Positions 3,953-12,718 of a stretch of 64,000 bases of DNA are shown here, one piece after another. This stretch comes from Chaetoceros tenuissimus. Lineage: Eukaryota; Bacillariophyta; Thalassiosirophyceae; Chaetocerotales; Chaetocerotaceae. The notes beneath the pieces are model-generated. The model searched no databases. It saw nothing but the letters and a program-made list of their open reading frames with translations, and was not told the DNA's origin. A program made the position numbers and the translations under genes. The stretch spans positions 2,108,001 through 2,172,000 of the forward strand of contig BLLK01000022.1 in NCBI GenBank assembly GCA_021927905.1. The letters run 5' to 3'. Numbering within the stretch: the stretch's first letter is position 1; each line of letters opens with the position of its first letter.

Positions 3953-6375
3953 ATGGTGTCCATCAATCTATTCAAACGAAAGCCAAAAGCAACCACAGAA
4001 GAAGATGCGGCAAGTACTGCATCGGCTAATAAGAACTCGAGCGAAACCAAGAAAACAAAGGGAAAAGGAAAACTTCAAAAGGAACAAATAGAAACGACAA
4101 CACTCAGAGTCAAAATACCTCCAAATGTCAAACCAGGTCAACAATTTGTTGTCTACAATGGTACACGAAAGATTAAACTGACTTGTCCCAAAAATGCTCA
4201 AGCAGGCCAGTCTCTCATGATCAAAGTGCCAAAAGAAAATACAGAAAAACAAATCAATGGTGAAAATGTGATTCCGATACCTGATTCTTCTCCACCGGCT
4301 TATGATGTGATTATACCACCTAATACAAGAGGAGGAACGAAATTTGCAGTTTTGATCAATGGTACGACAATGATGGTGACTGCACCTGCGAATGCAGTGG
4401 CAGGTATGAAATTAAGAATTGTACCGCAACAGCTTAAATTGATTGATAAGAAAGGACAAAAGGGTCAGACATTTGAAGTACGTGTTCCGGAACATATACA
4501 ACCTGGGGAATCATTTCCGTTAATGGCCAATGGAATGAGAATTATTTTGCAGTGTCCTCAGAATGCAGAGGGTGGGCAAATGGTGAGATTCAACTTGCCA
4601 TTCAGATCTAAAAATATGATTGTGAAAAAGTTAGAGTATGATGTTGATGGATGGGCTAGAACTCTACAAGTTGCGCAGATGAAGTTTCAATGGGCTAGGG
4701 TTTCGAAAAAGAGGAAATCTATGAAAAATAGTATTGCGAAACGTATGAATGAGAATGCATATGTGAGACATATTTCGAAACATGGCATGGAGTTGATTCC
4801 TGCTCAATGTGAATTAGTGGATAGTTCACTTGTTACAGACCAAGGAGAAGAGTTAGCAAATTTTGAAGATTTGATTGAAATGCAGAGAAAAAGTTTGTCG
4901 GAAAAGACGGATGCTTTTCATAAGCTCTGTAAAAGGTTAGGTAGAGAAGATTCCAAAGATCGGAGTTTTGTATGCATCAAAGTTAGACGCGAGAACTTGT
5001 TAGGTGACTCTTTGAGGGCAGTAATGTCTTTAAATCAAGAGAACCTCAGAAGAAGATGGGTAGTCCAGTTCAAGGGAGAGGAAGGAATTGATGCAGGAGG
5101 ACTCAAGAGAGAGTGGTTTGAACTCATTTCAGAAGAGTTGTTTGATTTAAATACTGGTCTCTGGATGACTAGTGGAGACAATCAAATGAATTTGCAAATT
5201 CATCCCGCATCCAGTAAGTTGTTTTCGTCATTATCTCTGTATTGATTCTTTTTTCTTCGCTAACTGGTTTGAAGATGTTCTGAATGAGGGATGTTTGCTC
5301 TACTTTAGATTCTTGGGCAGAGTATTGGGGAAGGCATTATTTGATGGAGAACTAGTCAAAGGACATATGGTGCAAACATTTTACAAGCATTTGTTGGGTT
5401 GGCCAGTAACATTCCAAGACCTTGAGAACCTAGATCCTGAGTATTACAAATCTATCAAGGCGCTAATGGAAATGGATGATGTTGAATATGCATGTCTTGA
5501 CTTTACTACGAATGAGGATATGATGGGAACTCATAAAACTATAGATTTGATTCCAGATGGTGCTAATGTGGATGTGACTAATGAGAACATAGTACGTTAC
5601 CTCGAAGCTATCTTGAACTACAGACTTGTCGGTCGCTTTAGAGAACAACTGCGAGAGTTGTCTTTAGGATTTACTGATGTCGTCCCACCCAGTCTTTTGA
5701 CTATATTTGACTATCAAGAATTGGAGTTGCTACTTTGTGGTTTGCCTACAATTGACATGAACGACTGGATGGACAACACAAGCTATACTGGTTTATTCAA
5801 AACTGAGAAAGATCTGGTAATTACTTGGTTCTGGGAAACAGTGATTGAGATGGAAGAAGAAAAGAAAGCGCGTTTATTACAGTTCGCTACTGGATCTTCG
5901 GGAGTCCCGCCGAATGGTTTCGCATTCCTGAAAGGTATGTGTTGATTGAAGTGTTTCGAACAAAAGAGACGCATGAAAGATATTGATCTGACTTATTGTT
6001 TATTTCTCTAATGTTAGGTAATGATGGTAGGATATCTACCTTCAAGATTCATGGAGTTCCAGTCGAAACTTGCATGTATCCAAGAGCACAGTAAGTACTT
6101 CCTATGACGAAAGATACTAGTCTCTGTTACTATAACTCTAACTTCTATCTACCAATCATTTTGCTATTGATTTCACCCGAAATAGTACTTGGTAAGTTTA
6201 CTCGTCTCTTTCAAAGCTATTTGCCAAACATGTACTTCCACTCATTTTGTTTTTCATTTCGATATACAAAAGTTTCAACCGCATTGACCTCCCAAAATTT
6301 GAGTCAAGAGAACAGTTGCAAGAAAGGCTTGAAGTAGCTATCACTATGGTTTCAACAGGTTTTGATTTGGAATAG
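3953..6375 (+). CDS. HECT-type E3 ubiquitin ligase with 6-nt microexon
   Basis: Five exons (3953-5213, 5275-5934, 6018-6090, 6186-6191, 6273-6375) total exactly 2103 nt and encode 700 aa. I start at ATG 3953 because the frame upstream has only a TTG. Residues 51-216 hold three copies of a roughly 43-residue beta-rich repeat (for example LRVKIPPNVKPGQQF, YDVIIPPNTRGGTKF, FEVRVPEHIQPGESF), a module frequent in stramenopile proteins. The C-terminal half is a HECT domain: GIDAGGLKREWFE, YFRFLGRVLGKALFDG, and the catalytic HTCFN loop with Cys667, 33 residues before the C-terminus GFDLE. The enzyme would accept ubiquitin from an E2 as a thioester on Cys667 and pass it to substrate. The HTC residues appear only when the 6-nt exon TACTTG is included. 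Confidence 0.92.
6186..6191 (+). other. 6-nt microexon of the HECT gene
   Basis: TACTTG is flanked by AAATAG on the left and GTAAGT on the right. With the neighbouring exons it reads CA|TACTTG|T, that is CAT ACT TGT = His-Thr-Cys, leading into Phe-Asn. Without it the frame is kept (6 nt) but Thr and the catalytic Cys codon are lost: CA joined to TTTC gives CAT TTC, His-Phe. Confidence 0.85.
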
Positions 6376-6416: not shown

Positions 6417-9400
6417 CTATTCTATGGAATCAAAATTGTTTTGAAAACACAAAGTCCTTGGAAGGATTATTGGAGAATTCACTTTTAATTCAGCATTTGC
6501 CCAGAGATTTTTGTACTCCTTCCGTGTTTTGTTAATCTTGACTATATCTTTCGCATTCACTTTAACACGAGCTGAAATCTGATTTGGAGTCTCATTATCA
6601 TGTGAATAATATATCATTCGGTCCTTCTGAGGCAGGATCAAATAAGACCCTTCTACTGCTTCATCATCTTCATTCACCAAAGGTATATCCTTGACATCTA
6701 TTGCTGCAATTGTATTTGCTATTGTTGCAAATGATTTGGTAAATCGTACCGAGAAATCCTCAAGAGGAAGAACAATAGGAGAATTGTTGATGCTGATTCT
6801 CGATTTAGAGCGAATGTCACTCATTTCTTGGCGCTGCTTATTGATCGCGACAATTACTTTGACATCAACTTTGAATTTCTTCGCTATTTCACGCAGTCCT
6901 TCATTTTTTTTCGCATAATAGATGATTCGCTTAAAATGCGGCTGAACCAAATATGATCCTGTCACAAAGTATTCATCTTCCTCTCTCATATGAATTTTTG
7001 AGACAATTTCGTTTGTGATCAGTTCTGAAAACTGCTGCTGCTGCTTCTTCTTCTTCTTCGGAGCTTCGCTTCGACTTGTGCATCCTGCATCTCTACTTCT
7101 CTTAGAAGTGTAGCCCCTATTTCCTCTACCACGTGATGGTGAATAAATACCTGAATCATTGAGTTGGGTTGTACTATCTCCTGTCTGACTAACCATATTG
7201 ATATTTGGATCATGATTGTCTCCAGGGAAAGAAAAGGACTCATTACTTCTCAGATGTTCAGAGTTAAATGATATTGAAGAAATGCTCACATCATCGTTGA
7301 TCGACATATTCATATCTATCGTTTCTTGAGTAACAATGTTCACGTCTTGGCTATGATCATTAGTTTGGTTTGTTTTTTGGACTACATTATCCCGCACCGC
7401 GCCACGAGTATGTGGCGACATAGCAGAAAGGAGGGACTCTTCGTCATCTGAGTGTTGTGGACTTTCTTCACTTTTACTACCATCATCTGAGACTTCGAGC
7501 AGTGGTATCTCGCCAAACTCTTCGTTCATGAATTGACGAAGGTCTCTCTGAAGCAAATACCAACCTTCCTCAACTTTTACAATCAACATATGATCACAGA
7601 AGTCTTTCAACAGTGTATTCACTTTAGTTTTGCTCAATTTTATATCTTCCATGTCTTCAAGGTCGGATGTAATAACTGTGTCGCGTATTTACAGATGTAA
7701 TATTAGAGGATAGAATAATAAGCATATACTTTGAAAAAACTGATGACTTACCGTCCGGATTCACAAGTTTTTCCCCACTTTTAAAATCCTTTCTTCTTTG
7801 CAAACGAATCAACGACCTGAATAATATTTGAGCATCTTTTACATCCCACAATTTTTCTTTAATTTTCTTTTCATTTTCATTCAACTCAGTCCTTTCTTCA
7901 AAATTTACCCCATTCCTATAATCGTGTTGTGTTGTCTTCAATGCCCCAGTTTTCCGGAAAGATTTGTCAACCCAGTTTGCGGCATACGAATGTTCCTTAT
8001 TTGATCCTGTTAAGGCATCCTTGAAACTTTCTCCATTTTTATTTCGGGAAGAAACTTCATCTAAATAGCACTGTACACTAATACCAATCTCGTAATCCAT
8101 TTGTGTAGTCAAAATAGTGACATGTTGGAACCCATTCGTTTGAAGCGTATCTTTTCCATTGTAAGTCGCCCTTCCAAGTGTTTGGATGACTGTGCTCAAG
8201 TTGTGGCCTCTGGAAAGCATCATGGTCATATGAGTAGGCACACGGTGGTCAGATCTAAATGAAATTCCTCTTCTCATTTTGGAGAAACCAAAAATGAAAA
8301 TTGGCATGTCAAGACCGTAGTTTTTATCTTCATCAATGTTTTTAATAACTTCGCCAATGAGAGAATTCTTCCATCTCTCGTGCTCCCAATTTTTCCCGGG
8401 AAATTTGACTGATATGCCCCTTCCGACAAAGGCAATCGCAATCATATCTTTCTTTTTCTGTCTGTAGAAGTGCTGAACCCGCTCTGCTTTCATGAAGACA
8501 TTCAAATCAACATTAACACGTGGATTTGTAACGTCTAATAAAAGAATTCCTTTCTTACTTCCTCCTTCATTGGAGAGAGCATCATTATACAGCGCCATCA
8601 CCTTCTCATTTGCATAGGGAATATCATATATTACCGTATTCTTGTTGATTTCATTAATCTCAAGAAACAAATTGTCTCCATTTTCATCTGTTAAAGGTTT
8701 TGTGCTTTCAATACCGACATAATTATCACTTGGCGAAAGGTTGAAGAAATCGAGGTCACAGTCAGAATTGCTAGCTAATTTGAGCATGAATGGAAGTGGT
8801 GTTGCCGAAATATAAGTCGTCAGTGCTGGGCCCAAGCTTTGCAGTTCATTCAATGCTCTCTCGAATTGCTGTACTTGTTTTTCTGTTCTCCATAACATTG
8901 CATCTGCCTCGTCAATGGTGAGTACAAATTTACCGCCAGGATTTTTTTCTCTATACTCCTTCAATGCCCGACATACTTTCGCACGAACCTGATGGGATGT
9001 ATCCGCAAGAACTACTACGCCTCCATTTTCTAGAGCATTTTTGATTTCATTGTCTTTCACTTTTATACCCTTGCCATCTTTTTTCCTTGATACAACAACA
9101 ATATAATTTTGGTCCATAGTTGTTCTGCTCGCAAAGACCTGCAGCTTTGCATGAAGATCAACACTTTCAGTTACGCCCTTTGTGACAATAATTTGTGGGA
9201 TCTCCATCAAATGACAAAGGAACATAATTACTCCTTTCACAGCAGATTTCCCAGATTGAGTGCGGCCAGCAACTACAACATTCTTTTGTAGGTATACAGA
9301 AAGCTCTTCTCCCACATGATAACCAGCACATTTAAAAAAGTGAAGCATAAAAATCGAAATGAAATCTCTGTATGCAAAATTTCCTAAATGCTTTTTCAGA

Positions 9401-9885
9401 TTGGCAGATTGCATGACAGCATTCGTGCAATATTTATATAAATCCTCACGTGAATACTCTCCACATTTAAACTTTTGGAACACTAGTTTTCCAAATTCCA
9501 TATCCTGCTTATCCTCAGCAGATAGATTACCAGAAAATGTGCGTCCCATTACTACACTCATAAACTGCTCAATTTCAACTTTTTTCTTCTCGTTTTGTAT
9601 CTGTTCTTCCTTTTTTCTCTTATCAAATTCCTCTTCATACTCCTCAAACATGTCCACTTCGAACTCTTCTAAAATATCGGCATCTTTATGTTTCTTTCTC
9701 CAGTCAATGGCTACCAATAGTCTATAATTTTGCATTTCTGTTAATTCGCCAAATTCTCGTTCTTGGAATCTCTCCTCTGCGCCAAGTAGGTGATCAAGAG
9801 TGTAGATTTCAACATTTTCCAAACGCTGGCGGGTCTTGCGCCCAATGCCTAAAACTGAACAGATGTGACGTAGATCCTCATCCAT
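6417..9885 (-). CDS. Z1-like superfamily-2 ATPase with LysM-like tail
   Basis: Two exons, 9885-7752 and 7675-6417, separated by a 76-bp GTAAGT...CACAG intron, give 1130 aa. Residues 1-65 look like a helix-hairpin-helix/SAM-type module (LGIGRKTRQRLENVEIYTL). A charged coil follows (75-105). The motor shows Walker A GRTQSGKS (207-214), a DEAD Walker B (325-328), motif III-like SATP (360-363), MRRGIS (537-542) and motif VI-like QTLGRATYNG (568-577). The last part resembles the Z1 domain found in bacterial restriction-modification ATPases. Exon 2 begins with a winged-helix-like stretch, then an acidic Ser-rich linker, a poly-Lys/Gln patch (KKKKKQQQQ), and two LysM-like modules (GSYLVQP... and GSYLILP...). 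It is head-to-head with a DNA methyltransferase 345 bp away. ATPase assignment is firm; the Z1 label and DNA role are inferred. Confidence 0.75.
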
Positions 9886-10230
9886 CTTGAAGGCCTAAGA
9901 TATGTGTTGTATCAACTTGCCTCTTAGTGATCAATGTCTTCCACTTTCCTTACAGTGAAGCATTGATAGCGAGAGCCATTGATAATACGTAGAGCTGAAC
10001 ACGATGGTATAGCATTGTGGTTTATGGTGCACGGTGCATTAAAAAGAGTCAAAAGGATTCTTGTATTGCTCATTCCCACGAAAACATATGGAAAAATGAG
10101 TGTAATCACGTAATCACAGATCAATCTCATCGTGATCATCAACAAGGCAAAATACTCGTAAATACATCTCAATCAGCATGTCTACCTTATTGTGCTAGAA
10201 CAAAAGAGGATAAAACATAAAGAGATTATA
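9886..10230. promoter_or_regulatory. shared divergent promoter of the ATPase and DNA methyltransferase
   Basis: 345 bp separate the two start codons, which point away from each other, so the pair may be co-expressed. I see no recognisable site beyond general AT-richness and no reading frame of note. Confidence 0.45.
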
Positions 10231-12718
10231 ATGTCAAGATCTAAGAATAAGGAGAAAAAGAAAGACTTGGAGAGGAAGATAAGGGAGGAAGAATTATTGA
10301 AAGAAAAACGTGTAGAAACATGGAACACTTATCTAAACAGCAAGAATCCTCGAGACAGAAAATTGGCGGTTCTGGGGAAAGCTGGTAAGTTCATAAGTTA
10401 AGAATTTAATTTACAATACTTTAGATTTACTTTCAATTTAGATTCATGGTACAAAATATTTCTCTATAGTTGCGGAGAGATATAAAGATAATAAAGTTCA
10501 AAAGTATGAGGAACAAGATGCTCGTGATAGCCTAGGAGAAAATGAAAAATCAACTAAGAGAAGGAGAATATCCCGGGTTGAGGAGAACAATATGTCTGAT
10601 AGTGATGAGTCTAAAGAACATGCAGAAAATGACGTTATTGAGATTCTAGATTCTGATTCTGAAGCTTCAGAATCATTATACACTAACTCAGAGAAAGATG
10701 CTGTTGGCATTGAGGATGCATCTTGTAGAGAAATGGCTGAAAGTAATGACGACAAATCATCGGAAGAAGAAAGTGTAAAACTTCAAGATTCTGATAATGA
10801 AGACACGTCAGAGGATGACAATGGTAGTAGTATAGATGAAGATAGACCAAATAGAAATGGTGTTGAATTTCAGGACTCTGATATTGATGACATGTCCGAT
10901 GATGGCAATGGTAGCAGTACAGATGAATACAGACAAAATGGAGATGATGTTGAATTTCAGGATTCTGATAATGAAGATATATCTGACATTGGAATAGTTG
11001 CCAGTGCAGATGAAGATAGTCAAAATGGAGCTGGTAGAATTGCATTGCAGGATTGTGATAATGAAGAAATGAATGGGGATTGCAATGACGGTCAAAACGA
11101 AGATGATGTGATCGAAAATCATGTTTCAGATAATTCTGAGAGCAGAAGCGATGTTGATGCATTTGTAGACGCAGATAGTGATGATGATGCTTACTTCTCT
11201 GACGGAGACGAGGAAATTCGTAACGAGCAAATAAACATTATCAAATCTAGCAGACTCGCTATGGAAATACAAGGGTTTAGGGCATCCTCGAGCAGCAAAA
11301 CAGTAAGAAGCGATGACAGTGAGGATGAAGCTGAACCGTCGTCAGAAAATATTACAGAAATATTCGACCCACCAAATGTTCAAATGAATGACAGATTGTT
11401 CTACAAACATCGATGTTACTCATACTTTTCAAGGGAAAACCCTGAAAAAGAGAAAATCGTTGGGATTCTCCATTTTGTGTCAAAAGAAGTAGCCAAGTGT
11501 ATTTTGGTAGTTGAAATGTCGACAACTTTTGTCAGGAGTGGCTCGGAAAGCACAAGACCAAGTGATGAAGAAGGACTTCTGAGAGAAGGCTTTCTTCAAG
11601 TTCATAAAGAAGTAATAGACATCAATCTTGTAGATATAGGCGATGAGAAACTAAATTATCTTCCCAAACTGATCTATGAGCCACAGCGTTCAGGCGGAGA
11701 TAAAAATTGGTGCCGTTTCGGGTACTTTTTGGATAGGCGAAACTTTAGAAGAGGTAAAAGGAGAAACAAAATCAGGTCTCTCGAATTTTTTGCTGGATGT
11801 GGTGGAAGTCTACAGGGATATCATAACAATCATTTCGAAACTGTCATGGCTATTGAAAAAGACGGCGACGCTGTAATAACTCTCAAAGCTAACAACGAGG
11901 ATGTACCTGTCTATCATGGTTGTATTAGAGACTTTCTCAAAGACTATGATACATTAAAGTGTGCACTTGGGAGAATTGATCACGTACACTTTAGTCCTCC
12001 CTGCAAAGGGTTCTCAACCGCAAATAGAAATCAAACAATGACAGACAAAGACAAGGAAAACAATGATTTATCCTTACTCATTATTGATATTATTCGGAAG
12101 ACATCATGTGATACAGCCATCTTCGAGAATGTTGAAGGGATGTGGAGAGATAAGAATATTGATTACGTAAAACAGATTGTGAGCGGGATTTTAAAGTTGA
12201 ACTATCAAGTTCGAGTGTGTTCCCTCAAAGCCTGTGACTATGGTAATGCTCAGAAACGGCCACGTTTCTTTATGGTGATATCAAAGTACTCCGTTCCTTT
12301 ACCAAATCTCCCCCAAAAGACACATGGGAAAGGAACATATTTGGAAGACTATGTTACTACCAGGCATACAATTGGCTTTTTATTAGATCAGAAAGATGAC
12401 CCAAATTTGAAAAACATGAATGTAAAGACCACAAGCGTGAAAGAGGGTCAACATGGATTAGTTCGCCTTGATCCGAACGGTTTGTCTCCTTCCATTAGAT
12501 CGAACTCATTGCAGCCATTACATTACTTGGAAACGGAAAATAGATGCATAAGCGTTAGGGAAGCTGCTTGTATCCAGGGGTTTCCAATGGATTACGAGTT
12601 TCATGGCAGCATCAACAGTCAATACAAACAAGTTGGGAATGCAGTCCCTATAGAACTTGGCTCTGCCATTGCATACTGTGTAAGAGATGTGCTAATGTAT
12701 GAGTACCAAGATTCATAA
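10231..12718 (+). CDS. cytosine-5 DNA methyltransferase with acidic repeats and BAH-like domain
   Basis: Two exons, 10231-10384 and 10470-12718, joined in phase 1 over an 85-bp GTAAGT...TATAG intron, give 800 aa. The N-terminus is Lys/Glu-rich with a KRRR patch. Then comes a SUMO-interacting-type motif (VIEILDSDSE) and about four imperfect 35-residue acidic repeats (VEFQDSDNED...). Around residues 355-475 a BAH-like region (NDRLFYKHRCYSYF...) is plausible. From about residue 488 the C5-MTase motifs occur in order: I FFAGCGGSLQGY, IV SPPCKGF with the catalytic Cys, VI ENVEG, VIII QKRPRFF, IX SVREAACIQGFP, X QVGNAVPI. The catalytic core is complete, so it should methylate cytosine in DNA. There is no SNF2 or RING in the gene, unlike the DNMT5 family of diatoms. 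Confidence 0.88.
10772..11075 (+). repeat. imperfect ~105-bp tandem repeats in the methyltransferase gene
   Basis: About four diverged copies encoding Asp/Glu/Ser-rich units with the core QDSDNEDxSDDGNGSSxDE. The linker is likely disordered. Confidence 0.7.

Follow-up and report, generated by a model that had tools for sequence, protein, structure and literature searches.

Structure of the locus and the predicted protein

The window analysed here is a stretch of 64,000 nucleotides of the Chaetoceros tenuissimus genome (G000:C16:2108001-2172000) with a G+C content of 38.9%. On its plus strand, positions 3953-6375 hold a five-exon gene that appears, from its reading frame, to encode a HECT ubiquitin ligase whose active-site loop, PRAHTCFNR, is divided among three exons, the middle one being 6 nt long. 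Exon 1 (3953-5213) begins with the ATG at 3953 and is defined by an open frame and the gene model, exon 2 (5275-5934) by these two sources and by a HECT match, and the gene model also places intron 1 (5214-5274) and intron 2 (5935-6017). Exon 3 (6018-6090) ends with AGAGCACA in phase 2, leaving the CA of the His665 codon at its edge. Intron 3 (6091-6185) is followed by the microexon TACTTG (6186-6191), by intron 4 (6192-6272) and by exon 5 (6273-6375), which opens with TTTCAACC (first bases TTTCAAC) and runs to the stop codon. The microexon completes His665, codes for Thr666 and supplies the TG of the codon for the catalytic Cys667. The boundaries can be read directly, with GTAAGTAC from 6091, AAATAG up to 6185, GTAAGT from 6192 and AG at 6271-6272; intron 3 therefore has the form GTAAGT...AAATAG and intron 4 the form GTAAGT...AAAAG, and all four introns (61, 83, 95 and 81 nt) are of the GT-AG type. 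The five exons sum to 2103 nt, i.e., 700 amino acids and a stop, in agreement with the 701 codons counted in the earlier note, which had also described the CA end of exon 3 and the AAATAG and GTAAGT flanks of TACTTG as we read them.

In the 700-residue protein, HECT is the only Pfam match at an E-value of 0.001, covering residues 391-699 at 283.6 bits (cut-off 23.9). The top matches among solved structures are the HECT domains of NEDD4 and NEDD4-like ligases, in which PRAHTCFNR is aligned identically. The catalytic cysteine, residue 667 in an HTCFN-type loop, is present only when the microexon is included; the remaining HECT domain is intact, as is the C-terminal end, which reads GFDLE here and GFHLE in the paralogue L001 (see below). 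The protein thus resembles NEDD4-type ligases in its strong HECT match and identical loop, and is unlike them in that an intron splits the catalytic codon and in that nothing in its N-terminal half matches Pfam at an E-value of 0.001. By eye, the region encoded by 4100-4610 (plus strand) within this half contains about three repeats resembling PPxxxPGxxFxVxxNGxxxxxxCPxNAxxGxxxxxxxP, a module without a Pfam match that is shared in part with L001.

Two further loci lie downstream. On the minus strand, 6417-9894 carries two open frames of 745 and 423 amino acids, possibly belonging to one gene, which stops about 41 nt past the HECT stop codon in a tail-to-tail arrangement and adjoins a methylase gene at its other side. 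The 745-aa part has no Pfam match at an E-value of 0.01 and contains the sequence GRTQSGKS, which we take to be Walker-A-like, together with what are presumably DEAD-like and SATP motifs; the 423-aa part has weak LysM-like matches near its end. The methylase gene (10442-12718, plus strand) encodes, after a long acidic region, a domain of the C-5 cytosine DNA methylase type (PF00145; residues 445-744, 150.7 bits); its top matches among the PADLOC models carry the name type II methyltransferase.

Evidence for the six-nucleotide exon

The earlier note had proposed that TACTTG completes the HECT active-site loop HTCFN. With the outer sites 6090 and 6273 fixed, a mechanical list of in-frame inserts of at most 80 nt bounded by AG and GT contains 11 rows, and TACTTG is the sole one that restores HTCFN, and with it AHTCFNR, which upholds this proposal. 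Stop codons occur in five of the other ten inserts, and some inserts are ruled out by size, because the upstream intron would measure 5 nt or the downstream intron would have no space. With the microexon, the protein scores 285.9 bits against the HECT profile; skipping costs about 20 bits (265.8 bits), and two other listed inserts reach 266.1 and 261.8 bits, the former being physically impossible. Two further claims of the same note also hold on translation, namely that the catalytic codon is split by the microexon boundary as TG|T and that skipping stays in frame and removes Thr-Cys, which yields a protein of 698 aa reading AHFNR.

The pattern AGTACNTGGT occurred in 6 of 20,000 dinucleotide shuffles of 6091-6272, a chance of about 3 in 10,000, and together with a full GTAAGT donor it occurred in none of 20,000. 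With a donor matrix, the site at 6192 scored 10.5 bits and that at 6091 scored 8.0 bits, and the remaining 9 of the 11 GT dinucleotides in 6091-6272 scored below zero; these values are partly circular, since the matrix was seeded with GTAAGT and trained on 21 predicted, unverified introns of this genome (20 distinct sequences, with one identical pair). The acceptors of introns 2, 3 and 4 scored 1.1, 2.2 and 1.7 bits, all below the minimum of 3.9 among the 21 training acceptors, which counts against the predicted exon. The RNA structure predicted for 6060-6300 does not stand out (z = -0.87).

The training introns came from a third, GTAAGT-seeded intron finder that returned 39 candidates, 21 of which, at most 130 nt long, were kept for the matrix; the other 18 (one of 152 nt and 17 of 189-288 nt) were left out for length alone. 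The lengths of introns 3 and 4 (95 and 81 nt) lie within the training range of 69-129 nt, which is no independent test because only introns of at most 130 nt had been kept, and intron lengths in this genome are uncertain because several of the 18 dropped candidates have good donors. The lists of two automatic intron finders were discarded as mostly false, including, for example, an 'intron' within exon 2. All intron statistics derive from 264 kb of sequence with 21-23 predicted introns. On the minus strand of another locus, L014, two predicted 88-nt introns at about 1548 and 6004 have the same printed ends and lie about 4.5 kb apart, suggesting a local gene duplication there.

As predicted, TACTTG would be an internal exon of 6 nt between two GT-AG introns, as is characteristic of spliceosomal microexons, and it is very probably a real exon.

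Similarity of the flanking introns

Introns 3 and 4 resemble each other, an observation that is new here and absent from the earlier note. Segments of intron 3 reappear in intron 4, spaced by 84 and 86, and one 8-nt segment does so at a spacing of 137. In the best local alignment, the core of the upstream copy (6115-6174, plus strand) matches that of the downstream copy (6199-6260, plus strand) with 44/59 identities and a score of 46, which none of 5000 shuffles reached (mean 18.3, standard deviation 3.35). For control, we compared 23 distinct intron sequences, comprising the candidates of at most 160 nt without a duplicate and introns 1 and 2, and none of the 253 pairs reached 46, the best scoring 32. 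After removal of the splice ends, none of 3000 shuffles reached the observed score in each of four scoring schemes, and none of the 253 control pairs reached it in three of them, with one tie in the fourth, strict scheme.

Among adjacent windows of the genome spaced in the same way, 14 of 1376 (about 1%) score as high as introns 3 and 4, so that local tandem similarity is not rare in this genome. Searched against the whole assembly (41,027,912 bases in 68 contigs), each of the two introns matches only itself at E-values up to 10, and the region 6080-6290 has no match besides itself; within the sensitivity of this search, a dispersed element is therefore disfavoured. A local tandem duplication is the most likely source of introns 3 and 4, which would then be copies of one another. 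Among four geometries of the duplication, B scored 33.5, C 42.5, C2 40.5 and D 46.0; they differ in length, and their scores do not settle the breakpoints.

The heptamer AGTACTT at 6094-6100 (plus strand) exactly repeats 6184-6190, that is, the acceptor AG and the first five bases of the microexon. It could be either a part of the duplication or a chance repeat. Its interpretation as an insertion footprint was set aside, since a 7-nt repeat was also found in 1 of 21 control introns.

HECT paralogues in the same genome

A search for HECT domains across the assembly returned at least nine matches, which we read as seven genes, L003/L007 and L005/L008 being pieces of one gene each and L004 being the microexon gene of the window. 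Among the six other recovered genes, all six have an unbroken cysteine loop, which reads HTCFN in L001 and L003, STCFN in L002, STCMN in L005, STCFF in L006 and HTCVN in L009. Unbroken encoding of the catalytic cysteine is therefore the norm of the family, and the predicted split of the catalytic codon is unique to the microexon gene among the recovered HECT genes. No related loci were confirmed in viral contigs or prokaryotic genome contigs, where none were expected.

The nearest paralogue in architecture is L001, located on another contig (L001:346-2451), which encodes 701 aa within one uninterrupted open frame and shares 50% identity with the microexon gene across the HECT region. It lacks all four introns of the microexon gene; introns have therefore been gained or lost within the HECT family. 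L001 could be an old retrocopy, or it could represent the state before intron gain.

Proposed origin and splicing of the microexon

The best explanation, to which we assign a probability of about 0.73, is that the locus encodes a HECT ligase with a constitutively included 6-nt microexon that arose when an intron was duplicated locally in tandem. In such a scenario, an ancestral intron would have adjoined the bases TACTTG; its tandem duplication, probably together with the six adjoining coding bases, would have left these bases between two intron copies; and the redundant copy of the coding bases would then have decayed, making the microexon the sole source of Thr-Cys. On this reading, the six coding bases lie where the two intron copies meet. 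Introns 3 and 4 would be excised sequentially, because only six bases separate the acceptor of intron 3 from the donor of intron 4. By translation, retention of intron 3 ends the protein at 665 aa, and retention of intron 4 ends it at 667 aa. HECT ligases act via a thioester intermediate, as stated in the available text of PMC3738095, and only the form that includes the microexon should therefore be active; this protein would form its ubiquitin thioester at Cys667 like other HECT ligases.

Constitutive inclusion is the most likely mode of splicing and a simpler reading than the on/off switch by skipping that the earlier note had suggested. The opposite view, in which the microexon is a regulated cassette whose controlled skipping switches the enzyme between an active ligase and a catalytically dead, nearly full-length form that might compete for substrates or E2, draws on the in-frame loss of nothing except Thr-Cys, on the weakly scoring acceptors of introns 3 and 4, which could permit partial skipping, and on two published parallels, the invertase mini-exon, for which alternative splicing in potato under cold is reported (PMC3340406), and the Xlr2 microexon switch of Trichoderma (PMC11121469). 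We nevertheless consider this view unlikely: such low values are not confined to the acceptors beside the microexon, since that of intron 2 is equally low, and skipping requires a 182-nt intron, although 17 of the 39 predicted introns, judged doubtful, measure 189-288 nt. It is quite unlikely that both histories apply, a tandem intron duplication having stranded the codons of the catalytic cysteine in a microexon whose inclusion later became a regulated switch between active and dead ligase.

Other explanations concern how the two introns came to stand side by side. Two independent insertions six bases apart would also have made a microexon, and the lack of all four introns in the nearest paralogue L001 is consistent with such gains, but the likeness of introns 3 and 4 exceeds that of shuffles and control introns, so we regard independent insertion as very unlikely. 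A dispersed introner-like element could yield similar introns at neighbouring sites from one element family; this is highly improbable here, as each intron matches only itself in the genome, although copies about 75% alike could escape the search, and neither resembles any of the 23 control introns, against which they score at best 24 and 22. The least probable reading takes 6091-6272 as one intron, possibly a complex, stwintron-like one, within a dying or non-catalytic HECT gene that has no cysteine and contains TACTTG by chance. A direct join of 6090 to 6273 does keep the frame, and yet the pattern around TACTTG has a chance of about 3 in 10,000 or less, a strong donor stands exactly where the six bases end, and the HECT domain is otherwise intact through its C-terminal end.

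Comparison with known systems

The aspartate of the DPN motif of invertases is catalytic. In plant invertases and fructosyltransferases (GH32), a 9-nt mini-exon encodes the DPN of WMNDPNG, the beta-fructosidase motif, according to the available text of PMC3340406 and PMC8831610. The HECT microexon is similar in that it encodes part of a family-defining motif; the GH32 mini-exon differs in being 9 nt long, in occurring in many plants and in belonging to an unrelated enzyme, and similar flanking introns are not mentioned in the portions of these sources at hand. Exons of such small size that are spliced constitutively include the 6-nt microexon of chicken cTNT and the 1-nt exon of Arabidopsis APC11 (PMC4674806), neither of which is described, in the accessible part of that paper, as bearing a catalytic residue. 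A microexon that carries key residues of an enzyme is therefore no new kind of element, because the invertase mini-exon and constitutive exons as short as 6 nt and 1 nt have been described before.

For intron gain by duplication, the neighbouring introns of the HECT gene show the expected sign of shared ancestry, with 44/59 identities, a level of similarity that 14 of 1376 genome windows also attain. A parallel is the RdRp gene of potato, which gained an intron beside its parent when a tandem genomic duplication spanned an intron-exon boundary (PMC4974935), much as proposed here; the potato case differs in being polarised by phylogeny and supported by reads, and its source, as far as available, mentions no microexon, whereas the HECT intron copies have diverged at about 25% of aligned bases. 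For some near intron pairs of Drosophila, regional tandem duplication has likewise been proposed to give rise to novel introns (PMC2891723); there the duplicated sequence is coding and becomes intronised, and no single gene has both intron positions. The stwintrons of Hypoxylaceae are complex intervening sequences built of two introns (PMC8469720), one of which sits within a splice element of its partner; in contrast, introns 3 and 4 of the HECT gene each have complete ends, and six coding bases lie between the acceptor of one and the donor of the other. The many dispersed similar introns that mark introner-like elements were not seen within the limited sensitivity of our search. Among the matches listed in the open-licence literature, we found no case of a microexon in a HECT gene, in a diatom or between intron copies, and diatom microexons look little described in that literature.

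Implications

To our knowledge, the origin of exons below the normal recognition length is poorly understood. The similarity left in the introns that flank the HECT microexon suggests a route by which such exons may arise, namely the duplication of an intron together with a few adjoining coding bases, followed by the loss of one coding copy. A gene predictor blind to exons of this size would annotate the ligase without its catalytic cysteine, and an active enzyme would probably be called dead.
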